Below, one piece after another: positions 2,840-16,612 of a stretch of DNA of 16,612 nucleotides. The notes beneath the pieces are model-generated. The model had not been told where the DNA came from and did no database searches. It worked only from the letters and a program-made list of their open reading frames with translations. The position numbers and the translations under genes were made by a program. Each line of letters begins with the position of its first letter. Position 1 is the first letter of the stretch. This stretch comes from Flectobacillus sp. Lineage in GTDB: Bacteria; Bacteroidota; Bacteroidia; Cytophagales; Spirosomataceae. Location: positions 1 through 16,612 of the forward strand of contig JARXAV010000014.1 of NCBI GenBank assembly GCA_029865665.1. Reading direction: 5' to 3'.

Positions 2840-3811
2840 TTATTTTTTACTAACCTTATAAACTCCTTCGGTAGTTTGTATGATGGGTTTAATCGTACCG
2901 TCTTCATTGTAGTACATATAGTCCACACAGATAGAGCGACGGTACATGCTTCCAGTGGGTAAAGCACCATTATGATAAAAAAAGTAAGATTTACCTTTGT
3001 AATCAATTATACCGGGGTGAGTGGTAAAACTATTCGGAACATTTTCTTGTATGATACCTTTGTATTCCCAAGGGCCGGTAGGGCTTTTTGCCATGCAGTA
3101 TTCAATCATTTCTGGCTTAGTACCTGCACTCGCATATACGAGGTAGTACCAGTTGTTACGCTTATATACCCAAGGTCCTTCTATGTAATTTTTAGGAGTA
3201 TCTACCGTAATAGGGCCATCCAACTCTATCATGTTTTCTTTAAGCTTAGCCCATTTCATACTACCATTACCCCAATAAAGATAGGCTTGCCCGTCGTCGT
3301 CAATGAGTACTGTTGGATCTATGTCATCCCAAGAATGGGGCTTGTCTTTAGTCATTTCATTGACCACTAGTGCTTTACCAATAGCATCCTTGAAAGGCCC
3401 CAGTGGATTGTCTGCCACGGCAACACCGATACAAGAGCCTCCTTGGCTTTCTGCATCTTTTTTATGAAAAGTAGATACGAACCAGTAAAACTTCCCATTC
3501 CGTTCTACACATTGAGCCGCATAGGCATCACCTGTTGCCCAACTAAAGGTTGCGGGCGAGAGTTTTACTCCATGATACTCCCATTTTTTCATGTCTTTGG
3601 TAGAGTAAACATGCCAGTCTGGCATTCGATAATTAGGAGCATTTACTGAGGCCGTATCATGCCCAGCATATACATAGAGTACTCCTTTGTGAACTAAAGG
3701 AGCAGGGTCAGCAGTAAAAATATTACGGAAAATAGGATTTTGGGCAAATGTGCCTTTACTCCATAGCAGACTGCCAAATGCGAGAAGTACAGCTATTAGT
3801 TTATATTTCAT
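2840..3811 (-). CDS. GH43 family exported glycosidase, single-domain (arabinofuranosidase/xylosidase type)
   Basis: This 323-aa protein has a signal peptide (residues 1-24, ending GTFAQ) followed by a bare five-bladed propeller with no accessory domain. Visible triad: base D35 in 'FTADPAPLV', pKa modulator D165 in 'DIDPTVLIDDDGQAYLYWG', and acid E211 in 'YIEGPWVYKRNNWYYLVYA'. The compact length and the 'YRMPDWHVYSTKDM' stretch resemble the short GH43 proteins of Bacteroidota xylan loci (possibly subfamily 1). These are often annotated as arabinanases but act as arabinofuranosidases or beta-xylosidases. It is the middle of three consecutive GH43 genes, 54 bp after one and 12 bp before the next. 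Three divergent paralogues suggest division of labour over different arabinose and xylose linkages. The precise specificity cannot be read from sequence. Confidence 0.9.
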   Translation of the reverse strand: MKYKLIAVLLAFGSLLWSKGTFAQNPIFRNIFTADPAPLVHKGVLYVYAGHDTASVNAPNYRMPDWHVYSTKDMKKWEYHGVKLSPATFSWATGDAYAAQCVERNGKFYWFVSTFHKKDAESQGGSCIGVAVADNPLGPFKDAIGKALVVNEMTKDKPHSWDDIDPTVLIDDDGQAYLYWGNGSMKWAKLKENMIELDGPITVDTPKNYIEGPWVYKRNNWYYLVYASAGTKPEMIEYCMAKSPTGPWEYKGIIQENVPNSFTTHPGIIDYKGKSYFFYHNGALPTGSMYRRSICVDYMYYNEDGTIKPIIQTTEGVYKVSKK

Positions 3812-3865: not shown

Positions 3866-5533
3866 TCATTTCAAGACGGCATCATCACCGCTGTATTTCA
3901 AATACTTAAATGTTGCGTTCTTGTCTGATTTTTCACCATTGGAAGTTGCGTACATTGCATATACACAGCCTACAAAGCCTCCTGAAAATTTGGTAGAAAG
4001 GTGTTTGCCATCTTGGTTTTCGGCTAAAACCTTGAAGTCTTTGCCATTTTCAGAGATAGAAAAATCACATTTATCGCCTTTGGTAGCGATACGCAAGACC
4101 AATTTTCCATTGCCAACAGGTAGCGTATTAATCAATTCTACGTCTTTTTTGCGGTGAATACTTTTATATAATTCTACTTGAGTTTTACCGTCTTTAATAG
4201 ATTTTGCCAAAAAGTAATAATGGCTTTCGTCTTGATAAATCACTAACCCAGCTTTTTCTTTTTCAGATTTTGGAGAAAAAACGAGTTCTGTTTCTGCCGA
4301 ACTGCTTAGATGTTGCTGACGCTTGCCTACAAATGAAGGATTTTCGAGTGCTGAAATAGTCTCGGGTTTAAGTTTTAAGGTTAGTCCATTTTTAGAAGTT
4401 TTAAACGAACTACTATCTACCGTTCGCAAGTGCATCATCGAAAGGTCAAGACCTTTATCAAATTTCATGGTGTAAGAGAAATTACCATTTTGAGGCAAAG
4501 CACCTTTTTGCTTTACTTCTTTAATATTGGTTTCGTATTTGTATTCGATGGCTTTTTCGCCATGTTCAATCATCGGCCAATCGTTTACCCAAGTAAGCGG
4601 AGCAATAAACATTTCACGTCCTGTATTATAATAATCACCTTCGTAAGGACGAACGGCTAAGAAAATCGAGTACCAATTACCATCTGGCCCTTCAATAAAT
4701 TGTGCGTGTCCTGCTGATGTAATAGGGTTGGGGCGGTCTGCTGGTAATTCCCTTTGAGTCAAAACGGGGTTTCCCGCATAAGGTACATACGGTCCCCAAA
4801 TATCTTTACTACGCAAAGCCACTTGTGAGTGATTGACCGATGTTCCGCCTTCGGCACAATACAAAATATACCAATCGTTGCGTTTCAAAATATGTGGACC
4901 TTCAATCCAAACTGGTTTTTTAGTAATATCCACACCGCCGTTTATCAATTGCTTTTTCTCACCAATGGTTTTTAAGTTTTTGTAATCAAACTCATACAAT
5001 TGCACCGTGCGATGTCCAGAGTAAAGGGGTTTATTATCAGGAGCATCGCTGTTGTAAACCACATAAGCTTTGTCAGTTGCTTCGTCAAAATAAATGGAAG
5101 GGTCAATACCACGAACTTGGGGCAATTTTACGGGATTACTATAAGGGCCAGCAGGGTTGGTGGCTGTAACTACAAAGTTTCCGTCGTTGTCAATATCGGT
5201 ACAAGTAACGTAGTAAATGCCTTTGTAATACGTAATGGCAGGGGCAAAAAGTCCACGGCTCATACGCTCGCCCATGAAATCCATTTGTGATGGACGATTG
5301 ATTACATTCCCGATTTGTTTCCAATTCTTCAAATCACGGCTGTGCATGATGGGTAACCCTGGGAAATAGGAGAAAGTAGAATGAACGGAATAATAATCTG
5401 CGCCTACTTTTACAACACTTGGGTCAGGATAAAAACCCGTCATAATTGGGTTTACCAAGGTAGTTTTCTGTGCATTTGCGATACCGACCGTAAACAGATA
5501 GGTAAGTCCTAAAATGAATGCTTTTATTTTCAT
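3866..5533 (-). CDS. GH43 family beta-xylosidase-type enzyme with C-terminal beta-sandwich
   Basis: This 555-aa exported protein has a signal peptide (residues 1-21, ending GIANAQ). The propeller shows the GH43 triad: base D37 in 'GFYPDPSVV', pKa modulator D144 in 'GIDPSIYFD', and acid E211 in 'IEGPHILKRNDWYILY'. The stretches 'YYSVHSTFSYFPGLPIMHSRDLKNW' (split here as YYSVHSTFSYF and PGLPIMHSRDLKNW) and 'GHAQFIEGPDGNWY' are typical of two-domain beta-1,4-xylosidases of subfamilies 10-12. Residues of about 340-550 form the concanavalin-like C-terminal domain. The likely reaction is release of xylose from the non-reducing end of xylo-oligosaccharides made by the GH10 enzyme upstream. The ATG lies 26 bp after the GH95 stop, consistent with one transcript. 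Activity on arabinofuranosyl linkages is an alternative. Confidence 0.92.
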   Translation of the reverse strand: MKIKAFILGLTYLFTVGIANAQKTTLVNPIMTGFYPDPSVVKVGADYYSVHSTFSYFPGLPIMHSRDLKNWKQIGNVINRPSQMDFMGERMSRGLFAPAITYYKGIYYVTCTDIDNDGNFVVTATNPAGPYSNPVKLPQVRGIDPSIYFDEATDKAYVVYNSDAPDNKPLYSGHRTVQLYEFDYKNLKTIGEKKQLINGGVDITKKPVWIEGPHILKRNDWYILYCAEGGTSVNHSQVALRSKDIWGPYVPYAGNPVLTQRELPADRPNPITSAGHAQFIEGPDGNWYSIFLAVRPYEGDYYNTGREMFIAPLTWVNDWPMIEHGEKAIEYKYETNIKEVKQKGALPQNGNFSYTMKFDKGLDLSMMHLRTVDSSSFKTSKNGLTLKLKPETISALENPSFVGKRQQHLSSSAETELVFSPKSEKEKAGLVIYQDESHYYFLAKSIKDGKTQVELYKSIHRKKDVELINTLPVGNGKLVLRIATKGDKCDFSISENGKDFKVLAENQDGKHLSTKFSGGFVGCVYAMYATSNGEKSDKNATFKYLKYSGDDAVLK

Positions 5534-5559: not shown

Positions 5560-8019
5560 TTATTTTATTGAAAAAGTATAAACGTTACCCTTCTGCGTAG
5601 TTATGTCAAAAAGGAAGGTTTTTTTTAATACAAGTGGTTTGATAGTTGATTTTTCGGAAATGATTGGTTGGGGTATCTCTTCTAATTGATAAAATGGATT
5701 CGTATTTTTACCTTGAGCCTTTGCTAAGTTAGCTCCTGTGCTGATTTTCAATTCATTAGGTAATCGCAAACGAAGGTTTCCGCCCAAATTAGATTTAATA
5801 ACCACCTTAACTAACTTGGCATCTTTCCACTCCATTGATACGATTTCAAAACCACCTTTAGCACGAAGTCCACGAATAGAGCCTTCTGTCCAAACATCTG
5901 GAAGAGCTGGCAAAAGATGTATGGCATCTTCAGCACTTTGCATCAGCATTTCGGTAATACCCGAAGTACAACCGAAATTGCCGTCAATCTGGAAGGGAGG
6001 ATGTGCATCGAACAAATTGTTGTAAGTGCCTCCCCCATCGGCATTTACCCCCAGTGGCGTAAGCTGATTTTGAATTAATTTATAGGCATGATTTCCATCT
6101 TGCATTTTTGCCCACCAGTTTACTTTCCAGCCCATACTCCAACCTGTCGAAACATCACTGCGTTGAATCAAGGTATTTTTGGCAGCCGCAAATAGTTCTG
6201 GCGTGCGATAAGCTGATATTTGATTAGACGGAAACAGGCCATACAAATGTGAAATATGACGATGATGGTCGTTAGGTTCGTCCACGTCGTCAAGCCATTC
6301 TTGTAATTGATTGTGCTTCCCAATGTGCATAGGGGCTAATTTACTACGCACTTGTTTGAGGGAATCCACAAAAGCAAGGTCATTACCAAGTGCCTCGGCA
6401 GCTCTAATAGTTGTGCTAAATACATCATACACAATTTGATTATCCATCGTTGTACCCGCATCGATAGAAGAGCCTTCGTGTGCTGCAGGAGCATTTTCTG
6501 GCGAGTTGGCAGGAGCTACCACCAACCAGTGATATTTGGGATGTTCTACCAAAAAATCAATATAAAAAGTAGCTGCCCCTTTCAAAATTGGATATACCGA
6601 AGCTAAGTATTTTTTGTCGCCATTGTATAAATAATGTTCCCAAAGGTGCTGACTCAGCCAGCCACCGCCTGCATTCCAAACTCCCCAAAATGCACCGTCA
6701 ACTGGCCCGTTGATTCTCCAAATATCGGTATTATGATGAGCCATCCAGCCACGAGTACCATACATGACTTTGGCAGTTTCTTTGCCTGTTTCTGATAGTT
6801 CCCTTATCAATTTAAGTAATGGTTCGTGTAATTCTGAAAGATTGGTTTTTTCGGCAGGCCAATAATTCATTTCAGTATTTATGTTGATTGTATATTTACT
6901 ATCCCAGGCAGGGTATAGTTTATTATTCCAAATACCTTGCAAGTTGGCAGGTTGTCCGCCTGGTTGTGAAGAAGAAATCAACAAATACCTTCCATATTGA
7001 TAATATAGCGTAACAAAATGTGGGTCATAGCTTTTGTTAAAATTTTTCAGTCGCTCGTCGGTTGGCAATTTTGCGGCATCCGTTGCACCCAAATCCAATT
7101 TTACTCTGTTAAAATACCGCTGGTAAGCAGCGATATGTCCTTTTAAAATGGCTGGATAAGCTTTTGGAAAAGCTTTGTTCAAGTATTCTAAAGCTCTTTT
7201 ATTTTCATCGCCACTGATATCATCATATTTGTTGAAATTGGTCGCAATTGAAATAAATATAGTGGCAGTATTAGCGTTTTGCACCACGACTGAAGAATCG
7301 GTGGCACTCATGTTACCACCCTCAATTTTGAGTTTTACGATTCCTTTGAGCCGAACCAAACCTTTTACGCCTTCATGGTCTGCTGTTGTGGCTGCCAAAG
7401 TGAGTTCTTTATTGGGCGTAACAGCAATACTTTTCTTGGCATGAGGCGACGAGTAAGTAGCTGAAAAAGAGAGACTATTGGCTTTGTTGGCTGTAAGTCG
7501 TATTACGATGACTCTGTCTGGAAAAGATACAAATGCTTCACGGGCGTATGTAACTCCTCCAGCTGAGTACGTAGTAGTGGTTAGGGCTTTTTCAATATCT
7601 AATTCACGGCGATAATTGCTAAACTGTTGGTGTCCTTCAAAAGTTAAATGCAAATTACCCACAGGTTGAAACATTTGTCCATGCGATTTTTTAGTGATAA
7701 TCGACTGATTGGTCAGCTTTTCGGCTTCTTTGTATTTTCCTTCAAAAATCAATTTTCTAACTATCGGCAAAGCCGCCAACGCATCAGGGTTGTCATTGCG
7801 ATTGGGGCTACCACTCCAAACGGTGTGTTCGTTGAGTTGAATCGTTTCTTTTTCAACATTGCCGTAGACCATTGCTCCTAGAAAACCGTTCCCAATAGGT
7901 AGTGCATTTTCCCAAGTGTTTCCCGCAGGTTGATTATACCACAGGTTCAGCCTTGTTTTGTTCTGGGAGAAAACACTTTTTGCTACAAAAAGTAAGAAGA
8001 TCAGAAAAACTTGTTTCAT
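5560..8019 (-). CDS. GH95 family alpha-L-fucosidase / alpha-L-galactosidase
   Basis: This full-length GH95 enzyme (819 aa) has a signal peptide (residues 1-19, ending SVFSQ). The N-terminal beta-domain contains '[15 protein letters not shown]' and '[10 protein letters not shown]', both highly conserved in GH95. An (alpha/alpha)6 catalytic barrel follows. Catalytic residues can be placed by comparison with Bifidobacterium AfcA: the Asn pair N379 and N381 in '[10 protein letters not shown]', the acid E508 in 'SPENAP', and D679 in 'QIDGNFG'. The family inverts alpha-1,2-L-fucosidic bonds, but a GH95 member in a Bacteroides ovatus xylan locus acts as alpha-L-galactosidase on complex (corn-type) glucuronoarabinoxylan. 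Given the neighbours GH115, CE15, GH10 and GH43, alpha-L-galactosidase is the more attractive assignment here. This is context-based inference. It starts 105 bp after the GH10 stop. Confidence 0.93.
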
Positions 8020-8124: not shown

Positions 8125-9249
8125 TTATTGTTTATTAGTTTTTAATTTTACTACTGCGTGATAGGCTTTTTTAGGTTTTAAAGCTCTATCGAACAATAGT
8201 GGATAGTTGGTACGATTGGGAATCGGAAATCCATTTAGCCATGAGTGGCTATCATCTACCCCCCAAAATGTTACTCTGCTTATTTTATCCTGATGTTTCA
8301 AGAAAAGTTTAAAGAGGTCTGTATAACGGTCTGCCAAGGCTGTTTGCACTGAGTCAGGTAAGGCATCTTTGTAAGGATTCATTTCAGGGCTTTCTGCAAA
8401 TCGTTGATTCACATCAGCTCCTCTTAAGTCCCATGGATTAGGTAATACAGTAAGGTCTAATTCCGTAAAGGCAACCTTGACACCTAGCTTAGCAAATTCA
8501 ATAATTGATTCTTCAATTTCTTCTAAATTGAGGGTTTTAATACTCCAGTGTCCTTGAATCCCAACACCATCAATCTTTGTTCCACTTGCTTGTAACTTTT
8601 TGATAATCTCAATTGCCCCTTTACGTTTCGCAGGTTGTTCGATATTATAGTCATTATAATACAAAGCTGCTTTTGGATCCGCCTTAGCTGCCAAATCGAA
8701 GGCTTCTTTTATGTAGCCTTCTCCCAACGTATTCAAGAAAACGGATTTGCGAAGGGTACCGTCTTCGTTCAATGCTTCATTTACCACATCCCAACTATTG
8801 ATTTTGCCTGTATATCTTCCTGCAACGGTATTGATGTGGTCGGTCATAAATATACGTACAGAATCAGCATTTTTCATTCGATACACAAAAGACGGTAATT
8901 GCGAATGCCAAACTAAGGTATGTCCTACAATATACATGTTGTTCTTTTGCCCATACTCTACATATTTGTCTGCAAGTGTAAAATTATAACGATTTGGAGC
9001 AGGATGAACAATCTGAGACTTCATGATGTTCTCAGGTGTTATAGCATTAAATTCTCGCTTGATTAGCTGGTTTGTTTCTTCGTTTTTTTCCAGAATATGG
9101 TCTGTACCTAAAGCTGTACCAATCAAGAAATCTTTTTGATAAACTGACTTTAGTGAGATAGGTGTTTTCTGTGCACACGACAAGTTGAAAGATAAGATGC
9201 TTATAAGAGCTGTTTGACATATTGTCGTTGGTAGCTTACAATAATTCAT
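8125..9249 (-). CDS. GH10 endo-1,4-beta-xylanase
   Basis: This 374-aa enzyme is a typical single-domain GH10 xylanase that cleaves internal beta-1,4 bonds of the xylan main chain. The barrel runs from about residue 33 to 368. The acid/base is E158 in 'SWDVVNEAL' and the nucleophile is E263 in 'FTELDLTVL'. Other conserved stretches are 'NAITPENIMK' (about 68-77), 'GHTLVWHSQLP' (109-119), 'YYNDYNIE' (197-204) and 'VTFWGVDDSHSWL' near the C-terminus. The N-terminus is hydrophobic and ends 'FNLSCAQK'. Cys25 could be a lipoprotein cysteine, although -3 Asn fits the lipobox poorly, so a cleaved signal peptide is equally possible. It is preceded by 457 bp of non-coding DNA with a candidate promoter, so it may begin its own transcript (GH10, GH95, GH43 x3, GH97). 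Confidence 0.96.
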   Translation of the reverse strand: MNYCKLPTTICQTALISILSFNLSCAQKTPISLKSVYQKDFLIGTALGTDHILEKNEETNQLIKREFNAITPENIMKSQIVHPAPNRYNFTLADKYVEYGQKNNMYIVGHTLVWHSQLPSFVYRMKNADSVRIFMTDHINTVAGRYTGKINSWDVVNEALNEDGTLRKSVFLNTLGEGYIKEAFDLAAKADPKAALYYNDYNIEQPAKRKGAIEIIKKLQASGTKIDGVGIQGHWSIKTLNLEEIEESIIEFAKLGVKVAFTELDLTVLPNPWDLRGADVNQRFAESPEMNPYKDALPDSVQTALADRYTDLFKLFLKHQDKISRVTFWGVDDSHSWLNGFPIPNRTNYPLLFDRALKPKKAYHAVVKLKTNKQ

Positions 9250-9424
9250 GTTGTTTTAGTAATAAAGTAAATTGGGATAAATCGAAGACTTTTAACGGTG
9301 TAAAGTAAGTGAATGGACAAATGAATATGTAGCACAAATTATCAAATATTATTACCGAATGTTTAATAGGAAAGAAATTGTTTAATTAATATAAATAATA
9401 TCACAAAAAAAGGTTATGAGATGC

Positions 9425-9432
9425 CAAATGTA
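9425..9432 (-). promoter_or_regulatory. Candidate Bacteroidota -7 promoter element for GH10
   Basis: On the minus strand these bases read TACATTTG, a perfect match to the TAnnTTTG -7 consensus of the Bacteroidota primary sigma factor. The -33 TTTG is only approximated: TTTC lies at 9455-9458, spaced 22 nt, slightly long. Transcription would start near 9418 and leave a leader of about 170 nt before the GH10 ATG. A single 8-bp match in AT-rich DNA can arise by chance. Confidence 0.35.
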
Positions 9433-9534
9433 GAAAATATATTACTTTTTGGTGGAAATATGCTTTTGAGATATAGTTAAAAAGCTGAGGGGAATTTTGG
9501 TTGAAACCGCTTTAACATTCTCGACTTAGATGAT

Positions 9535-9596
9535 ATACATACCATAAAGTAGAAGAAAATTTTATCGTAAAATCTCTCCTACTTTATGGTATGTAT
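9535..9596. repeat. 18-bp perfect inverted repeat with nested small hairpin
   Basis: The arms ATACATACCATAAAGTAG (9535-9552) and its exact reverse complement (9579-9596) flank a 26-nt spacer. Inside the spacer ATTTTA-TCG-TAAAAT (9559-9573) forms a second hairpin. The structure lies about 110 bp after the CE15 stop and about 100 bp before the candidate GH10 promoter. Neither side has a T-run, so a textbook intrinsic terminator is not supported. A bidirectional terminator of the AT-rich Bacteroidota kind, or a dimeric regulator site, would both fit. Confidence 0.8.
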
Positions 9597-9706
9597 TGAA
9601 AATTAGCGTTGATTTATAAGAAAAGTACCCGAAAGCTATTGTCCGTGATTTACTTTTACACGATTAGGCTAAGTCAACGAATTCAAAGATGGGCGACTTA
9701 TTTGAT

Positions 9707-11077
9707 TTAATCACAATCGCCCCAATATTTACACGCCCAAGCAATCCAAGTACTCCAATTTGGCCCTGTACTGTGGCCACCTGCATGTTGTCTAAAGGCT
9801 ATTTCTCCATTCGTTAACGCAGTTCCTAATTTAGGGAAATCCACTGTTCCTAAATCTTTTTTACCCAATAATTGATATACTGTTCCCGCATGAACTGCCC
9901 CTAAGAAAGTTCCCTTAGAATCTATCCATTTGCCTTCTACTTGAGGAGAACCCGCACTGATAAAAATTGGTCTTGGAGCAGCTAAAGCAACTAATTCATG
10001 GGCATCAACCGACAAATCATTAGGGGTTAATTTACTAGCGTAGTTGATAAAATTACCTGCGAACCAGTGATATTCTGAAGAAGATGCGAGGTTTTCCACT
10101 TGTTCTCCAAATATTCTACGCAAGATTTTAGCTCCACCTGCTCCAGATGAACCAATGAAACCAAGCGAAAAACGAGGTTCAAATGCCATGGTTACGATGG
10201 CTGCTTTTCCATATCGAGATAAGCCTTCGATGGCTACTCGTTTAGTATCTACTTGCTTGTCGGTTTCTAAATAATCCATTGCTCGACTGGCTCCCCAAGC
10301 CCATGCTCTCAATGCTCCCCATTCATCTGGTTTACGAAATGCTCCTTTGTTGACTAAACCAATGATACCAATTGTTAGTCCAGCACCATTATCGGCTTGG
10401 ATACTGCTAGGTTCAAGAATGGCATACCCCCACCCTCTCGAAATGAGTTGCTCTTGCCAAGTGGGTTCTCCCGAAGAACCTAAGCCGATTGCTTTAATTG
10501 GTGCTGGATTAAATGGATTACGTACGAAGCCAAATTCCATTACAAGAGGTACTGCTCCTGAGGCATTTAGAGGAGTGGCTACTACCAAATTTATTTCAAC
10601 TTTTATGGAAGGGAAAGCGGTGTTATCGACAATTCCTTTTAACGTTTTTTCTTTAATCGCTTGATTTCCTACCGTAGTATCTTTTACTGAAACAACTTGC
10701 CATGTTACCGAAGGAATCTGTTGAGGTAAACGACCATAAATCTCATTTTCAAAGTCTCTGATGAGTTCTGGTCTTCTTTTCTCAAACCAGTCTTTAGCAG
10801 ATTTTACTTTTTGTCCATTTTTTAACGTTAGTGCATCTGGTAAGGAATAGGTGTTGACTTTTGCCTCCGAACTATTGGCCGCATTCGCATCTTTGGGATT
10901 TCCTGATGGCCCACTTCTGAGTTGTGAACGTGCTATTCCTAACTGTTGAAGCATATTAGCATAATCATCATTATTCCGTTTGCTCACACTGTCCCGTTGA
11001 GACGATGTGAGTCCAAATTGTGCAAATGTTGAACAACTGATGCAACAGAGTATCACTATTTTTCTTAACGTTTTCAT
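9707..11077 (-). CDS. CE15 family 4-O-methyl-glucuronoyl methylesterase (glucuronoyl esterase)
   Basis: This 456-aa alpha/beta hydrolase is predicted to cleave ester bonds between glucuronic acid on xylan and lignin alcohols. A signal peptide ends at 'STFAQ' (residue 20), followed by a low-complexity linker (about 25-75). The CE15 nucleophile motif is 'GLSRYGKAA' with Ser287. Other bacterial CE15 features are 'GGAKILRRIFGE', 'EYHWFAGNF', 'VDAHELVALAAPRP' and the catalytic His435 in 'HAGGHST'. Where fungal members have the acidic residue (Glu before SGxGG) this protein has Ser310 in 'IGSSGAGG'. The acid is therefore probably E381 or D386 on the later loop ('QVEGKWIDSKG'), as described for other bacterial members; this assignment is inference. 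It lies 80 bp after the GH115 tail and chemically complements it: CE15 exposes the carboxylate that GH115 removes with its sugar. Confidence 0.93.
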   Translation of the reverse strand: MKTLRKIVILCCISCSTFAQFGLTSSQRDSVSKRNNDDYANMLQQLGIARSQLRSGPSGNPKDANAANSSEAKVNTYSLPDALTLKNGQKVKSAKDWFEKRRPELIRDFENEIYGRLPQQIPSVTWQVVSVKDTTVGNQAIKEKTLKGIVDNTAFPSIKVEINLVVATPLNASGAVPLVMEFGFVRNPFNPAPIKAIGLGSSGEPTWQEQLISRGWGYAILEPSSIQADNGAGLTIGIIGLVNKGAFRKPDEWGALRAWAWGASRAMDYLETDKQVDTKRVAIEGLSRYGKAAIVTMAFEPRFSLGFIGSSGAGGAKILRRIFGEQVENLASSSEYHWFAGNFINYASKLTPNDLSVDAHELVALAAPRPIFISAGSPQVEGKWIDSKGTFLGAVHAGTVYQLLGKKDLGTVDFPKLGTALTNGEIAFRQHAGGHSTGPNWSTWIAWACKYWGDCD

Positions 11078-11157
11078 GATGATAAATTTACAATTTTGAG
11101 TTGTTTTTGGATATACAATTTACGAAATACCTTTCCCTAACCGTGATGATAGTAGGA

Positions 11158-12313
11158 CTATTGCTTACTAAAATAACTTTCTTGTGGCCCTAAATAACTT
11201 GGCTTTAAACCTCCTGTGTCAATCATTATTTTTTCTAACATAACGCCTTGGTCAACCATCCAAATTTTTAAGGTATGCTGACCCGATTTAGGTACATAAA
11301 ACTTTGTCTGACATTGTCTTGCCTGTTTTACAACGGTTTCAGCCCAAGCTGGATTAGACCAATGTACCTTAAATTTATCAGGAACATTGGTAACATACTG
11401 AGGGGCTTGGTCGTCTATCGAAACAGCCAATTGAGTCGCTCGTCCTGGCATCACATTGAGCAATGGCGAAGTCACTAAGGTAATGTCAATGGTATCTTTT
11501 GAAAATAAATATACAGGATACTCCAAGCAAGGGGCATTTTTCGTTGGAATAGCCGCAGGTGTATGAGCAGGTGCAGTCGCTCTCATGCCAGATAGCGTAA
11601 GACCATAATCATCTACCTTAATCCACTGAGAATTGGCAACGGCTGTATTTTTTGAAAAATGTTCTGCCTCGATAGCAATCAATCCACCGCTTTCTACAAA
11701 GCCTTTTACGGTTTCGGTTGGATTAAACGCATTTACCGAAACGACTACTTCCTGATCTGCTCCCGAAATGGTGATTTCTCCTGTATTTCTTCCTTTTGGA
11801 ACTAGATTTTTATCCAATTTTACCCAAATACGTTTATCACGTTGGTCGATTATTCCTTTATTTTCACTGAAAGTCAACCAAGGAACATTACTTTTGATGG
11901 TGTAATCAAAGGCCTGTTTACCATGATTAAAAATTTCAATAAAATGCTCTCTATTACTAAAAATATCTAGTTCTGGAAGCATCGCTTTTTCGGAAGAAAT
12001 TGGCCAAGTAGCTTCACTTCCTTCTATACTAACGCCCATACTGGCAGCCGCTAAGGGTTCTATTTCTTGTAATGGAACGGCTCTCAAACTATTTGTTTTG
12101 GGTGGCATCCAATCGTTGTAGCCAAGGTGTGTTTGATCCATAAAGTGATTCCAACGACCGTCCGCATAAATGTGGTTATAGTGATTCATTAAAGCGGTAT
12201 CCTGCTTGAATAATTCACGAGTACGGATTGCCATCGTATTGGCACTCACTCGTTTCTGAGTTGCAAATAGCTTATTTTTTGCTGCCGTAACATACAATTC
12301 ATGTACTAAAGCA
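11158..12313 (-). pseudogene. GH115 alpha-glucuronidase, C-terminal part severed by transposon
   Basis: About 383 codons of GH115 C-terminal sequence remain. The frame joins the transposon end at 12313 and is in frame with a stop at 12367-12369 inside the element. Recognisable parts are 'VHELYVTAAKNKL', 'YADGRWNHFMDQTHLGYNDW' (typical of the helical region after the catalytic barrel), a middle Ig/BACON-like beta-domain (about 'PWLTFSENKGIID...GEITISG'), and the GH115 C-terminal domain ending 'MIDTGGLKPSYLGPQESY'. The catalytic barrel is not here. It belongs to the upstream part, which continues past the window end. A TTG at 12295-12297 is the earliest start in the fragment, but no active enzyme is expected from it. 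The intact protein would remove (4-O-methyl-)glucuronic acid from xylan. The remaining sequence shows no further frameshift or stop, so the disruption looks recent. Confidence 0.93.
12308..12313. repeat. Target-site duplication, left copy (AAAGCA)
   Basis: AAAGCA directly abuts the left transposon end and recurs at 16358-16363 beside the right end. Tn3-family elements usually duplicate 5 bp. The sixth shared base may be a chance match or a true 6-bp duplication. Using 6 bp gives terminal repeats of equal length. Confidence 0.85.
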
Positions 12314-12347
12314 GACGAGTCACTTAAATTTGGGGCAAACTTCCCAC
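12314..12347 (+). repeat. Left terminal inverted repeat of Tn3-family transposon
   Basis: These 34 bp match the reverse complement of 16324-16357 at 32 positions; weaker similarity continues to 12359, for about 40/46 in total. The outer end reads GACGAGTCAC where the right end reads GGGGAGTCAC, so two of the first three bases differ from the usual Tn3-family GGGG terminus. Confidence 0.92.
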
Positions 12348-12394
12348 GAAACAGGCTTAAATCATTTTAAATCAATTAGTTACAAGTGAAAAAG

Positions 12395-15300
12395 TTATAA
12401 TTCAAGGTTCATAGCCTTTTTCATATCTATTTCCAGAATATCAACCAACACTTCATCTGAAAAATCATATTCTCCTTGAAAATTAACATGACCATAAGCA
12501 AATGCCGCTGAATTTGATAATGCTCTTTGAATATCCTTTCTTTCTTCTGGATTTGCCTCGATGATTTTCTGGGTTTGGTACAAATAATTGTAGCAAACGA
12601 TTGAATTAATCAGTAACTGTTTGCTTCTTGCCATGATTAACAATTCCTCTTTGGTAGCGAATCTAATCAACCCGTCGTGTCCTAAATTGAGTTCCTCCGA
12701 AAGTTGGTGCATACTTTCAATTTGGGTGAGTTGATGGTTAATAATACGTCTGAGGTCTTCCAAGTGCATATATTTAAGTACAAAAATGGTTTGTACCAGT
12801 TTCCCCAACTCTTGTAAAGCAATGTTTAAAGGGTGTTTATTGGAGTAAGAAGTCAATCTTTTTAGCAATACAGAGGGCGTAATATGTTTCAATTTGAGTG
12901 TTGTAACCAACCTTAAAATGTTGTCCCATTGTTCATCAATAATTTTGATATTGACATTATTTCCTGCATTGATTTGATAATCAAGCTGTTGAGTGATTGG
13001 CATTTCAGCCATTCCGTAGAGTTTTACCTTATGAATCTGTTTAAATCGTGGCTGAAACTCAATTTTCATGAGATAACATAAGGCAGAATTAATGAAGCTA
13101 ATCCCATGTTGGTCGGTGGAATGCAAACGATTTGTTTCCATATCATCTTCTTCCTTTTCCTGATTTTTACCCTCTTTAATGGTTTTTCCTTTTTTCTTGG
13201 GCGTTTGGGTCAATACAGGTTGATAGTGCAGTAAGCCGTCAATGATGAACCATGCTTCAAAATCACCTGCCGAAAAAGTGGTGGTGTAAGTCAGTGGATA
13301 ATGCTCTGAGAGGAAGGAATAGATAATAATACCTTTTTCCTTACCAAAATATTTCGAGGAATAATTGGCATGAATGGAATTAAGAGCCATCATAAATCTT
13401 TGTCCATCGGATGCAGAACGCAGTAAATTTTCATCCTCCTTGAAAACCGCATTGATAGGCATTGAGTCTAATAAATCCACAATTGCCTCATTCGCCTCCA
13501 AGAGATTTTTAGAAGAGATGTGCCAATTAGAAGTCTTTTCGAGGGCTGCCAGCGTAATATTTTTGGTCTTTTTAGCCATTAACCCAATCCCTAAATTACA
13601 CCCCCAGCTAATAATGGTGGCAAAATTCACCATATTTGGCATAATATCTCGGCGATATTCTTCCATTTTGTGGGTTAATTTCTTGGTAAATTCCGTGTGC
13701 AAATTGACCGTATGGAGTAACTTAAAAATCGGTACGTATAGGTCTGAGGGGTATAAGTCAACGGTCGAAGCTGGGACGGCTTGTTTTTTGGGTGTGATGA
13801 ATTGAAGGGTATTATTTTTACGTTTTTTGACAAAAGGATTTAAGCCTTTATTGATAGCATCAAAGGTTTGTTTGAATTGAGAACTTAGTTTCTCTTCCAG
13901 ATTTTTACGGATATTCTCCCAGTCTTTCAAGTACGTTATTCCCGCTCTTTCCATCAATGATTCTTTATTTTTATCCCAATCATTCTGCGGAATCATGTAG
14001 TCTTCAAAAGCCTTAAATTGATGCGATACTCCCACATTTATCTTACCCGATTTGAGGGATTTATGGACATATTTCGCTAACAGTACTTTATATAATGGCT
14101 CATTAAAGCTTTTAGAACCCTCTTTTACTTGTTTTCGTTCTTCTTTATTTAGAAACTCTATGGGTGCATTGGGATTTAACACTCCTTGTTTTTTCTGGTA
14201 GAATTTTAAAGCAAGTAGCACTTTATCATCTGGTTCAGTAGCGGTAAATTCAACGTGTCGTAACATCTCAGCAATGCGTATCTGGAAAGCTCTTGCCTTT
14301 TCCGTCATGGCTTGGTAGAGTAATTTATTTTCCTGTGCTTTGGTGGATTCTTTGTAGAGTTTTTCAACCGCAGGGACTAACTTCAAAAACTCATTGTGTT
14401 GGGGGTTCTTAATGATTTCCATGATAATTTTAAATTTCTCTTCTGCCGTTTTTTCTAAGGAGAAGGCAGTATCTTGGAGTAGTTTGATTAAAGGAGCTTC
14501 GGCTAAGATTCCCAAGAATATTTCTGCCTGAGTAATTTGTATCTCTGGCTGCCATTCCAACAATAATTCATTTTTTCGATTATCGGCTTGTCTCAGCGTT
14601 TGTTGGGTGGTGGACATAAAAGTTTGTATCATCACATCATTAAGATAGTGGTATTGATGCTTGATAAAACATAACAGAAAGAGGTATTTTTGGTTACGTT
14701 GTTGAACTTGAAAAACGTGGGCAGAAAGCACGTAATTGGCATAATATTCAATGAGTTCATCCGAAAGTTTGAGAGAATTTATCAGTCCAATCAATAAATG
14801 GTATAACTCTTTTAATTCTTTCAGTTTAATCATATTCTCTCGGATGGCGGAGAGTTTCATTAACTCAACCATCGTCTTATAACGAGAAATCTTGTAGGTG
14901 TTTCGCCCTAAAATTTCATCGGAAAGTTTGTCAAATAAACCATCTAAGGCGGCAATTTGGGCTGATGTCGAATCAGTTAGGATTCTTTCCAATAATATTT
15001 TCTCGAAACTTTGGAGGGTTTGGGTAATGATAACAGCCAAGGTATTGTACGATGGGACTTCTATTCCTTGGGAGCGAAGGTAATCACACAAGGACCTGAA
15101 AATACTGGCGGGGCTAAATTGTTTGGTTGCCAGATGATTTGCTTCTTCCAGTGTAAGCTCTCGATAAAGTCCTGCAAAGCGATGAATCCCAAATTCTCGA
15201 AGAATCATCTCCCGATGGCGGGCTAAGGAAGTGCTGGCGTAGGACGTTAAAACAATCGTCTCACGCTTAATTTTCAATATCCGACACACGTAGAGTATAT

Positions 15301-15523
15301 CATTTTCTTGAAAGGTACTAACTTTAAAAAAACGCCCACAGGCTTTGAAATAACCCATTTGAATCACCAGACCAATATCATTAACGGGAGAAATAAACTC
15401 ATTTAGCTTACTCTTCAATCCCACTGGAATTTCAAAAAAAACTTTTCTTTGTTGATAAGAAAAGAGGGGAGGGTTTTCAAACTCCCTAATTTCTGAGGGG
15501 TTAAGGATGTCAATAATACGCAT
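12395..15523 (-). CDS. tnpA: Tn3-family DDE transposase TnpA
   Basis: This 1042-aa protein has the size and plan of Tn3-family transposases. The N-terminus (about 1-170) resembles the DUF4158 DNA-binding region and is followed by a long helical middle. The RNase-H-like catalytic core has D706 in 'SASDGQRFMMALNS', D804 in 'HSTDQHGIS' and probably E936 in 'TQIESMHQL', placed by comparison with Tn3/Tn4430 TnpA from memory. The product binds both terminal repeats and makes the strand cuts for replicative transposition. A strongly charged Lys/Glu/Asp-rich stretch (residues about 776-794) sits just before the second Asp and widens the D-D spacing. The reading frame is intact and ends 48 bp inside the left repeat. 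It runs in the same direction as the interrupted locus, so read-through into the GH115 tail and CE15 is possible. Confidence 0.96.
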   Translation of the reverse strand: MRIIDILNPSEIREFENPPLFSYQQRKVFFEIPVGLKSKLNEFISPVNDIGLVIQMGYFKACGRFFKVSTFQENDILYVCRILKIKRETIVLTSYASTSLARHREMILREFGIHRFAGLYRELTLEEANHLATKQFSPASIFRSLCDYLRSQGIEVPSYNTLAVIITQTLQSFEKILLERILTDSTSAQIAALDGLFDKLSDEILGRNTYKISRYKTMVELMKLSAIRENMIKLKELKELYHLLIGLINSLKLSDELIEYYANYVLSAHVFQVQQRNQKYLFLLCFIKHQYHYLNDVMIQTFMSTTQQTLRQADNRKNELLLEWQPEIQITQAEIFLGILAEAPLIKLLQDTAFSLEKTAEEKFKIIMEIIKNPQHNEFLKLVPAVEKLYKESTKAQENKLLYQAMTEKARAFQIRIAEMLRHVEFTATEPDDKVLLALKFYQKKQGVLNPNAPIEFLNKEERKQVKEGSKSFNEPLYKVLLAKYVHKSLKSGKINVGVSHQFKAFEDYMIPQNDWDKNKESLMERAGITYLKDWENIRKNLEEKLSSQFKQTFDAINKGLNPFVKKRKNNTLQFITPKKQAVPASTVDLYPSDLYVPIFKLLHTVNLHTEFTKKLTHKMEEYRRDIMPNMVNFATIISWGCNLGIGLMAKKTKNITLAALEKTSNWHISSKNLLEANEAIVDLLDSMPINAVFKEDENLLRSASDGQRFMMALNSIHANYSSKYFGKEKGIIIYSFLSEHYPLTYTTTFSAGDFEAWFIIDGLLHYQPVLTQTPKKKGKTIKEGKNQEKEEDDMETNRLHSTDQHGISFINSALCYLMKIEFQPRFKQIHKVKLYGMAEMPITQQLDYQINAGNNVNIKIIDEQWDNILRLVTTLKLKHITPSVLLKRLTSYSNKHPLNIALQELGKLVQTIFVLKYMHLEDLRRIINHQLTQIESMHQLSEELNLGHDGLIRFATKEELLIMARSKQLLINSIVCYNYLYQTQKIIEANPEERKDIQRALSNSAAFAYGHVNFQGEYDFSDEVLVDILEIDMKKAMNLEL

Positions 15524-15580
15524 AAGTCTATTTATTTAAACGACCGTTTTTATACACAGTCAAATTATTCCTATTTTCCT

Positions 15581-15588
15581 CAAATTTA
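15581..15588 (-). promoter_or_regulatory. Candidate -7 promoter element for tnpA
   Basis: On the minus strand these bases read TAAATTTG, a perfect TAnnTTTG match, 57 nt before the tnpA ATG. No convincing -33 TTTG was seen at the usual distance. The box is the left arm of the 10-bp inverted repeat in the presumed res region. Confidence 0.4.
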
Positions 15589-15624
15589 ATTATTTAGTTT
15601 GCCATGTAATTAATTAAAATATAT

Positions 15625-15632
15625 TAAATTTG
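15625..15632 (+). promoter_or_regulatory. Candidate -7 promoter element for tnpR
   Basis: TAAATTTG matches the TAnnTTTG consensus and lies 26 nt before the tnpR ATG. A TTTG at 15598-15601 could serve as the -33 box, although the 23-nt spacing is a little long. The box is the right arm of the same inverted repeat whose left arm is the candidate tnpA box. Confidence 0.45.
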
Positions 15633-15658
15633 AATTAATTGAGTAACGTAAATAATCT

Positions 15659-16279
15659 ATGATAAAATTAGGCTATGCTCGTGTTTCGACACTCGAACAA
15701 AATTTAGACTTACAAATAGACTCTCTTCAAAAAGAAGGTTGTAAACAAATATTCACCGATAAGGTATCTGGGGTGAAATCCGTCAAACCTGAATTTGAAA
15801 AATTGATTAATTACGCAAGACCAGGAGATACCATTGTAGTTTGGAAACTTGACCGTTTGGGCAGAAGTACCGTTAAATTGATTGAGTTGATTGAAAAATT
15901 AAAAATTCAGGGCATTCACCTCAAATCGTTGAGTGAATCCATTGATACTTCGACAGCCACAGGAAATCTATTTTTTCAGTTCATGTGCATTTTAGCGGAA
16001 CACGAAAGAAATGTTATCAGAGAAAGAACCAAGGCAGGTTTGACGGCTGCCAGAGTCAGAGGAAGAAAGGGCGGAAGACCCTTTGGATTAAGCGAACGCT
16101 ATCAACTCATAGCCCCAGAAGTCAAGAAAGCCTATGAATCGCAGGAATACTCAACCGATAAAATAAGGGAAATCTACTCCATCAAGAGCCAACCAACACT
16201 TTACAAGATATTAGCCTTTGCCAAGGTAGATGTGAAGGGATTTTTAAAGAAACGAGAGAATGTGGGTAAGAAAAAATAA
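15659..16279 (+). CDS. tnpR: Tn3-family serine resolvase TnpR
   Basis: This 206-aa serine recombinase resolves the cointegrate formed by replicative transposition through recombination between two res copies. The catalytic domain begins 'LGYARVST' with nucleophile Ser10 and Arg8. The active-site arginines R66 and R69 lie in 'KLDRLGRST'. The helix E segment 'AEHERNVIRERTKAGL' (about 113-128) is followed by 'GRKGGRP' (135-141), the minor-groove-binding hinge typical of this group. A C-terminal helix-turn-helix spans about residues 160-190 ('STDKIREIYSIKSQPTLYK'). Length is slightly above the usual 185-195 aa because of a basic tail (KKRENVGKKK). The gene is complete, diverges from tnpA, and stops 44 bp before the right terminal repeat. 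In this family TnpR usually also represses transcription from the res region. Confidence 0.97.
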   Translation: MIKLGYARVSTLEQNLDLQIDSLQKEGCKQIFTDKVSGVKSVKPEFEKLINYARPGDTIVVWKLDRLGRSTVKLIELIEKLKIQGIHLKSLSESIDTSTATGNLFFQFMCILAEHERNVIRERTKAGLTAARVRGRKGGRPFGLSERYQLIAPEVKKAYESQEYSTDKIREIYSIKSQPTLYKILAFAKVDVKGFLKKRENVGKKK

Positions 16280-16323
16280 TTTTACCTACAATTGACTGTA
16301 AATCAATGAGATAAGTCGTTTTA

Positions 16324-16357
16324 GTGGGAAGTTTGCCCCAAATTTAAGTGACTCCCC
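16324..16357 (-). repeat. Right terminal inverted repeat of Tn3-family transposon
   Basis: Read on the minus strand this starts GGGGAGTCAC, the classical Tn3-family GGGG terminus. It matches 32 of 34 bases of 12314-12347, with weaker similarity inward to 16312. The TAA at 16321-16323 (minus strand) ends the truncated GH115 frame immediately inside it. Confidence 0.93.
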
Positions 16358-16363
16358 AAAGCA
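16358..16363. repeat. Target-site duplication, right copy (AAAGCA)
   Basis: This is identical to 12308-12313 and abuts the right transposon end. Joining the flanks through a single copy regenerates the GH115 reading frame. Confidence 0.85.
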
Positions 16364-16612
16364 CTGGCTTTTGTCGGAAATAAGACAATCTGATAAAACG
16401 CATCTCGTTTTTCTTTCGGTAATTTGGCATAGATGGCTTCTGCTTGAGCGGTAATTTTGTTGTACTCCGTTACAACTCGCTCCGCTTCCTGATAATTGGT
16501 CAAACTGTAGGTCTGAGCTGTTAGCGATTCTGGTTTTCTACGTCCGTTAAATTTGGTGTATTTTGAAAGAATGTCCGCAATTTCGTTGGCATACGTCGCT
16601 CCAAATTCACGA
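16358..16612 (-). pseudogene. GH115 alpha-glucuronidase, upstream part, 5' end outside window
   Basis: The last 85 or so codons before the insertion are visible and open to the window edge on the minus strand. They carry GH115-typical sequence from the region following the catalytic barrel: 'REFGATYANEIADILSKY', 'KFNGRRKPESL' and 'AFYQIVLFPTKASAL'. After KASAL the frame enters the transposon, adds GSHLNLGQTSH and stops at 16321-16323. A protein made from this half would keep the barrel (if intact upstream) but lose about 380 C-terminal residues, including two beta-domains. Family members have about 830-1000 aa. The gene is the most upstream of the locus genes seen here. Its own start, promoter and anything before it are not in view. 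Confidence 0.92.

Follow-up and report, generated by a model that had tools for sequence, protein, structure and literature searches.

The divided GH115 gene and its locus

The window, by which we mean the whole 16,612-bp stretch of DNA that was analyzed, carries a GH115 alpha-glucuronidase gene cut in two by a complete 4,044-bp Tn3-family transposon (12314-16357). The features are listed below.

2840..3811, minus strand: GH43 (PF04616, 1.1e-43)
3866..5533, minus strand: GH43 with C-terminal domain (PF04616, 5.9e-82; PF17851, 8.2e-44)
5560..8019, minus strand: GH95 (PF22124, 9.9e-183; 87% to an Arcicella aquatica protein)
8125..9249, minus strand: GH10 xylanase (PF00331, 1e-102)
9707..11077, minus strand: glucuronoyl esterase-like gene (PF22244, 3.2e-31), which we take to be of family CE15
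11158..12307, minus strand: downstream part of the split GH115 gene (382 whole codons), C-terminal domain included
12308..12313: target duplication AAAGCA, left copy, directly abutting the left transposon end
12314..16357: whole transposon, 4,044 bp
12314..12360, plus strand: left terminal inverted repeat, with GACG as its outermost bases (right end, GGGG)
12395..15523, minus strand: tnpA, Tn3-family transposase, 1042 aa (PF01526, 1.7e-89; PF13700, 2.6e-19)
15524..15658: tnpA-tnpR gap, AT-rich, with inverted repeats
15659..16279, plus strand: tnpR, serine resolvase/invertase, 206 aa, divergent from tnpA (PF00239, 7.9e-44)
16311..16357, minus strand: right terminal inverted repeat, beginning GGGGAGTCACTTAAATTTGGGGCAAACTTCCCAC, 40 of 47 bases matching the left repeat
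16358..16363: target duplication AAAGCA, right copy, directly abutting the right transposon end
16358..16612, minus strand: upstream part of the split GH115 gene, 85 codons as far as the window edge, junction codons included

With GH10, GH43, GH95 and glucuronoyl esterase-like genes in the window, the first-pass annotation's description of a xylan locus is a reasonable one. The nearest named relatives of the window's genes belong to Arcicella, a freshwater genus. Between 11000 and 16612, no terminator-like site was found on the minus strand (two were found, both on the plus strand), and the xylan genes downstream of the insertion may still be transcribed.

Judged by sequence, the pieces present are GH115. 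The 382-aa C-terminal piece (12306-11158, minus strand) matches GH115_C (PF17829, 1e-54) and solved GH115 enzymes (4zmh, 9.5e-57). The N-side piece (16611-16364, 82 aa) finds 4zmh with phmmer (4.9e-21), as well as 7pxq, 7pug, 4c90, and 6nps, and aligns to the part that precedes the C-terminal piece in the same structures; the 96-aa open reading frame to which it belongs (16321-16611) has no Pfam or NCBIfam match. Both pieces align, in order, along BoAgu115A, SdeAgu115A, and wtsAgu115A (the assignment of PDB codes to these enzymes is in part presumed), and the alignment to 4c90 places the interruption at approximately residue 582 of BoAgu115A. Roughly 467 GH115 codons lie within the window, and for these the earlier statement that the pieces are free of other lesions holds; the first ~520 codons, including the catalytic TIM barrel, are beyond the window edge at 16612.

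Anatomy and affinities of the transposon

The element has a Tn3-type DDE transposase, an adjoining resolvase gene, and inverted repeats of at least 38 bp, all characters of the Tn3 family, but the target duplication is 6 bp rather than the family's 5 bp. We read this as a variant and not as an exclusion from the family, because 6-bp duplications have already been published flanking some Tn3-family or Tn3-derived ends, namely in passages on the TIMEs (PMC4133298) and on Tn6296 (PMC9603283). The transposase scores 497.3 bits against NCBIfam NF033527, 2.7 under the cut-off of 500, and matches the Tn4430 structure 7qd4 (3.9e-47); in the alignment, Tn4430 residues 679, 751, and 881, which we take to be the DDE triad, have D706, D804, and E936 as their counterparts. 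The best solved match of TnpR is the DNA-invertase 4m6f (2.6e-41), with the gamma-delta and Tn3 resolvases ranking lower, and its catalytic serine is presumably S10 in the motif YARVST. The gap between the two genes is presumed from its position to hold the res site and promoters; its folding is not above that of shuffled sequences (z -0.70). No passenger gene was seen in 12314-16357.

Tn3-family terminal inverted repeats start with GGGG. Here the repeats are ~47 bp long and identical between the ends at 35 of the 38 outer bases and 40 of 47 overall, compared with 38-40 bp, at times longer, in the family as described in PMC7157771. Like the window element, Tn4430, Tn3, and Tn21 have a DDE transposase of ~1,000 aa with DUF4158 and DDE_Tnp_Tn3 domains, a serine resolvase, terminal inverted repeats, and a short target duplication.

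The closest elements are in genomes G446 and G447, where TnpA is 94% identical and DNA identity is 88.5% and 86.5% across ~4,040 bp, with the same repeats. They occupy insertion sites different from the window's and have no exact duplication (flanks AATTAC and AATTTAC at locus L125, no duplication at L054). The G446 transposase matches P0002, from an Arcicella sp. MAG, and the protein database matches to TnpA (P0001-P0014) range from 61 to 94%, most of them on short contigs. Within Jiulongibacter's family, the next full-length matches after those in G446 and G447 are at 45-46%; 62 of 222 genomes have a TnpA match, and 58 of 222 a match to the GH115 C-terminal piece. That piece has no match in G445-G449, the genomes that hold most of the end motifs. 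A Jiulongibacter genome (L033) contains GH115. For the genus to which G002 (F. franklandianum) belongs, a search of 398 genomes gave 0 matches to TnpA, an empty answer that alone shows nothing, and viral contigs contained no exact copy of one end-motif pattern. A DNA search with the element found 15 plasmid records, each matching in the part around the resolvase gene.

Continuity across the insertion and loss of the enzyme

The first-pass annotation had proposed a complete transposon between AAAGCA copies inside GH115, with the gene continuous on either side, and both claims are borne out: tnpA, tnpR, and the repeats are intact, and the copies, with the ends fixed by the inverted repeats, are exact. 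When the two pieces were searched separately, the spacing between them was exactly 9 bp in each of 52 loci of relatives, out of 52, and a 3-residue gap separated them in 120 of 120 proteins among the matches listed. The window's junction codons predict SAL at this gap, and SAL is what the two closest intact proteins have at the insertion site (P0153, with pieces 96.3% and 94.5% identical, and P0155, 92.7% and 93.5%). No empty allele of the same species was found at the DNA level.

These observations also bear on whether the junctions could come from assembly, with a repeated transposon misjoined to GH115 sequence in a contig from a draft or metagenome assembly. Kin genomes do carry multiple copies of the end motif, with ends on several contigs. 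However, both flanks here are one gene and would meet exactly as in all 52 relatives, and they share an exact duplication that would not be expected from a chimera; we reject a chimeric assembly on these grounds and consider it extremely improbable. The interpretation that a Tn3-family element splits GH115 is supported by flanks that fit the relatives exactly. The insertion may plausibly be recent, given the exact duplication and the absence of visible lesions.

The split gene is very probably switched off. The upstream frame reads on across the transposon end and, 11 foreign residues later, meets a stop at 16321; the downstream piece lacks a catalytic domain. BoAgu115A truncated at 526, 639, or 665 had undetectable activity (PMC3879575, Table 3), and we infer loss of function because the insertion, near residue 582, falls within the range of these inactive truncations.

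A tolerated split is very unlikely, whether the two halves were produced as individual chains and then came together or the element dropped out frequently enough to preserve function. Neither piece has stops, the insert and one copy of the duplication together measure 4,050 bp, which is divisible by three, and a TTG start is present at 12297; against this stand the early stop of the upstream frame, the lack of any secretion signal visible to the eye where the downstream piece begins, and the inactivity of shortened BoAgu115A. Tn3 elements, moreover, are not known for excising cleanly.

For the disrupted gene, loss of this enzyme's activity is well supported. For the strain, the earlier claim of lost or altered removal of glucuronic acid is not established, as the locus of some relatives (L004, L007, L029) has a second or third GH115-like match. 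Gene disruption of this type is ordinary; the window offers a clean case of how a single insertion can deprive a xylan locus, otherwise well stocked, of a debranching enzyme, while annotation would list the split GH115 as two partial genes. A 6-bp duplication is less ordinary.

Length of the target duplication

The Tn3 stagger is given in print as 5 bp (a passage of PMC9579193). We counted duplications around related elements with the transposon ends fixed by the inverted repeats. Among 54 Bacteroidota loci, 25 gave no repeat pair around TnpA; the 29 left comprise 17 in the transposase branch of the window element (16 once L173, the same stretch as L124, was removed) and 12 in other branches. 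Support for the branch is 89/90, below the tool's star level, and L233 is absent from the tree, sharing its transposase accession with L178. Within the branch, 9 of 10 resolvable insertions have a 6-bp duplication, at nine different targets; L198 is the one with 5 bp, and 6 of 16 have no duplication of 5 or more. Outside it, 4 of 5 resolvable insertions show 5 bp (Fisher 0.017 for 9:1 against 1:4, a guide only, as relatedness is ignored).

The 12 loci of other Bacteroidota branches divide into L211, L213, and L223 with 5 bp, L222 with 4 bp, and eight with none; L211 and L213 are one element at two sites, and L222 and L223 apparently likewise. Thirteen non-Bacteroidota loci gave 5 bp at L179, 4 at L235, 3 at L236, none at six, and no repeat pair at two; L237, with 6 bp, has a broken transposase frame of 837 aa and the longest terminal branch in the tree. 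The 6-bp call at L238, the last of them, was rejected (it is palindromic and adjoins a non-transposon repeat, and there are 142 candidate ends). Also rejected were the script's 6-bp calls at L054 and L125, where an inner GGGG lies beside the palindrome AAATTT and the outer ends give no duplication, and its call of 7 at L213, made with ends at GG; GGG ends, as in L211, give 5. The ends of L206 are ill-defined and give 4 bp, and the pair AACGAT in G449, spotted by eye on two contigs, was excluded from the count.

The sixth base could be a chance match or the element's own, added to the usual 5-bp duplication, as the printed stagger and the 5-bp cases in the survey (L198 in the branch; L179, L211, L213, and L223 outside) would allow. 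We consider this unlikely. Exactly 6 bp recurs in nine of the ten resolvable branch insertions, and swapping flanks among loci produced 6 bp or more in only ~0.6%. An identical Hymenobacter transposase, moreover, occurs at two sites (L178, L233) where the bases adjoining both ends differ, so the sixth base is not part of the element. The published precedents differ from this pattern: the passages on the TIMEs of Pseudomonas (PMC4133298) record 5-bp duplications too, with all 6-bp cases at one site, and Tn6296 is a single mention (PMC9603283), whereas the window's branch has nine different targets.

We regard it as probable that strand transfers six bp apart, not five, are a property of this Cytophagales (Bacteroidota) branch of the Tn3 family. 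For the window, we assign a probability of roughly 0.92 to the reading that a Tn3-family transposon devoid of cargo entered the GH115 gene of an Arcicella-like bacterium and duplicated 6 bp, with the ends of its branch apparently going in six bp apart. The small element would have jumped into the region of the xylan alpha-glucuronidase gene encoding a helical bundle and would have duplicated 6 bp of target, AAAGCA, its transposase branch appearing to place its ends at that distance. If the 6-bp branch is real, it would mean that the geometry of a well-studied transpososome has shifted naturally, and a 5-bp rule for spotting Tn3 insertions would overlook its members. Comparison of 5-bp and 6-bp transposases could reveal what sets how far apart the two strand transfers fall. 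No clade-wide TnpA change explaining the 6 bp emerged from a comparison with four 5-bp rows, two of them identical; the differences it yielded were limited to an insertion of 4 residues, a C-terminus of greater length, and 8 fixed columns.

The split GH115 gene

The first-pass annotation had placed sequence of a GH115 alpha-glucuronidase on both sides of a complete Tn3-family transposon flanked by AAAGCA duplications, with a reading frame that rejoins once the element is removed. The parts concerned are:

16611-16364, minus strand: GH115 piece at the window edge, 82 aa, matching GH115 structures 4zmh (4.9e-21), 7pxq, 7pug, 4c90 and 6nps
12306-11158, minus strand: the other GH115 piece, 382 aa, with the GH115 C-terminal domain PF17829 (1e-54)
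12314-16357: whole transposon, 4,044 bp, between the GH115 pieces, with inverted ends, transposase and recombinase

Continuity was assessed with the two pieces as separate queries. The 382-aa piece matches the next stretch of the same structures to which the 82-aa piece aligns. The gap between the two matches is exactly 9 bp in 52 of 52 GH115 loci in genome_contigs, and exactly 3 residues, alignment ends allowed for, in all of the best 120 of 7,997 proteins found with the F. franklandianum enzyme (a few of the 120 being below full length). The nearest two proteins among the matches listed, P0153 (96.3% and 94.5% identity to the two pieces) and P0155 (92.7% and 93.5%), have the residues SAL at the insertion site, as encoded by the window's junction codons, and the insert plus one duplication copy measures 4,050 bp, divisible by three. 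Taken together, the constant spacing, the SAL match and the preserved frame bear out both the split and the rejoining, and make a chimeric assembly a very unlikely source of the two pieces. AAAGCA abuts both transposon ends directly on the outside, as had been described. As to age, the two AAAGCA copies are identical, and no stops interrupt tnpA, tnpR or the roughly 467 GH115 codons within the window. The finding is correct; one gene broken by one insertion is an ordinary event.

Predicted consequences for the enzyme and the xylan locus

The 82-aa piece aligns as far as residue 581 of 4c90 (numbering taken as that of the characterized enzyme BoAgu115A), which places the insertion inside the third domain, residues 488-641 (PMC3879575). 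The same paper reports that BoAgu115A truncations to 526, 639 and 665 were all inactive (Table 3) in an assay able to detect activity 100,000-fold below wild type, and that the C-terminal domain of one chain lines the cleft of the other; for a second enzyme, wtsAgu115A, a 2022 paper likewise describes substrate bound across the dimer (PMC9063842). The upstream product is predicted to end 11 foreign residues past the junction. By analogy with these truncations and the dimeric cleft, the split enzyme is expected to have lost activity. Some relatives carry a second or third GH115-like match within one locus (L004, L007, L029), and redundancy from other GH115 genes is possible.

The downstream genes (glucuronoyl esterase-like, GH10, GH95 and two GH43) look intact. 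They may still be expressed, since tnpA reads towards them and a search of 11000-16612 gave no terminator-like site on the strand that carries them. The GH95 product and its nearest named match, a protein of Arcicella aquatica, share 87% identity (another match reaches 92%). With the 94% identity of the transposase to an Arcicella MAG protein, this makes Arcicella or close kin (Cytophagales) the most probable source of the window. Five genomes (G445-G449) hold 18 of the 22 listed matches to the transposon end motif and yielded no GH115 match, which suggests that the presence of the GH115 locus varies between genomes. In three Flavobacterium-labelled loci (L001, L002, L003) GH95 directly follows GH115, unlike the window, where the esterase-like and GH10 genes (8125-11077) intervene. 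Two more carbohydrate-enzyme-like genes (3-1214 and 1226-2827) have weak NCBIfam matches far below the cut-offs (alpha-galactosidase-like, arabinosidase-like).

The transposon and its relatives

The inverted ends are identical at 35 of the 38 outer bases and at 40 of 47 over a longer span, and the element encodes a Tn3-type transposase (TnpA, 1,042 aa) and a divergent serine recombinase (206 aa). Its left end is GACG; in the closest other copies the corresponding bases are GGGG, GGCG or GGCA. TnpA is 94% identical to P0002, an Arcicella MAG protein; full-length genes at 94% identity occur in two genomes, G446 and G447, while G449 has part of one. The end motif is present in 8 of 222 family genomes, in which a reversed control pattern gave no match. 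Tn3-type TnpA was found in 62 of the 222 family genomes; a class-level sample of 295 genomes yielded 5, 4 of them above the cut-off. The contrast is a rough one, the first count coming from a protein query and the second from a Pfam query.

Compared with Tn4430, the window TnpA (in 12395-15523) has a charged insert of about 25 residues before the second catalytic D, at residues ~770-799, a point at which alignments with many other members of the family are interrupted as well. Elements of ~280 bp in G448 contig 133 (L164:1253-1534) and G453 contig 11 (L161:639-918) have the same kind of inverted ends, are too short for a transposase and resemble Tn3-derived miniature elements; no target duplication was seen around either.

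Target duplication length in the TnpA branch

The window element belongs to a Bacteroidota TnpA branch of 19 tree rows (support 89/90), to which L233, with the same transposase as L178, was added. The outermost G of each aligned repeat was taken to mark the element's end, and flanks were read for Bacteroidota and other elements. Among 16 distinct branch insertions with a repeat pair, nine have a duplication of exactly 6 bp.

Insertions of the TnpA branch with a 6-bp duplication
Window: AAAGCA
L123: GTGGTT
L128: ATGTTT
L175: CCCATT
L178: TAGAAA
L233: CAACTG
L184: ACTCCT
L234: ATTGTT
L199: AATAGT

One more (L198) has 5 bp, and six (L054, L125, L124, L174, L176, L206) have no duplication of at least 5 bp. 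Outside the branch (25 loci, from other Bacteroidota branches and non-Bacteroidota), L179, L211, L213 and L223 have 5 bp and L237 has 6 bp; for the other 20 no call was accepted. In trials that exchanged flanks among loci, at least 6 bp arose in ~0.6% and 5 bp in 1.1%. A Hymenobacter transposase (WP_173118890.1) occurs at two sites, and the bases beside both element ends differ between them, which indicates that the sixth base belongs to the target and not to the element.

Single 6-bp cases already exist in print: Pseudomonas Tn3-derived miniature elements have 5 or 6 bp, every 6-bp case being at one site (PMC4133298); for a member of the Tn21 subfamily, Tn6296, 6-bp repeats are mentioned in a single clinical paper (PMC9603283); and work on Listeria lists the Tn552-like Tn6870 and Tn6871 with 6 bp and Tn6947, of the Tn3 family, with 5 bp (PMC7698968). 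The Tn4430 structure paper gives a 5-bp stagger (PMC9579193). No report of a 6-bp transposase branch was found in the literature searched, which was largely open-access, and one may be known elsewhere; the duplication length seen in this branch is a modest novelty, and a testable one. In G449, two ends of different type, on contigs 230 and 417 (L144, L149), both have AACGAT in their flanks, as if one insertion had been split between two contigs.
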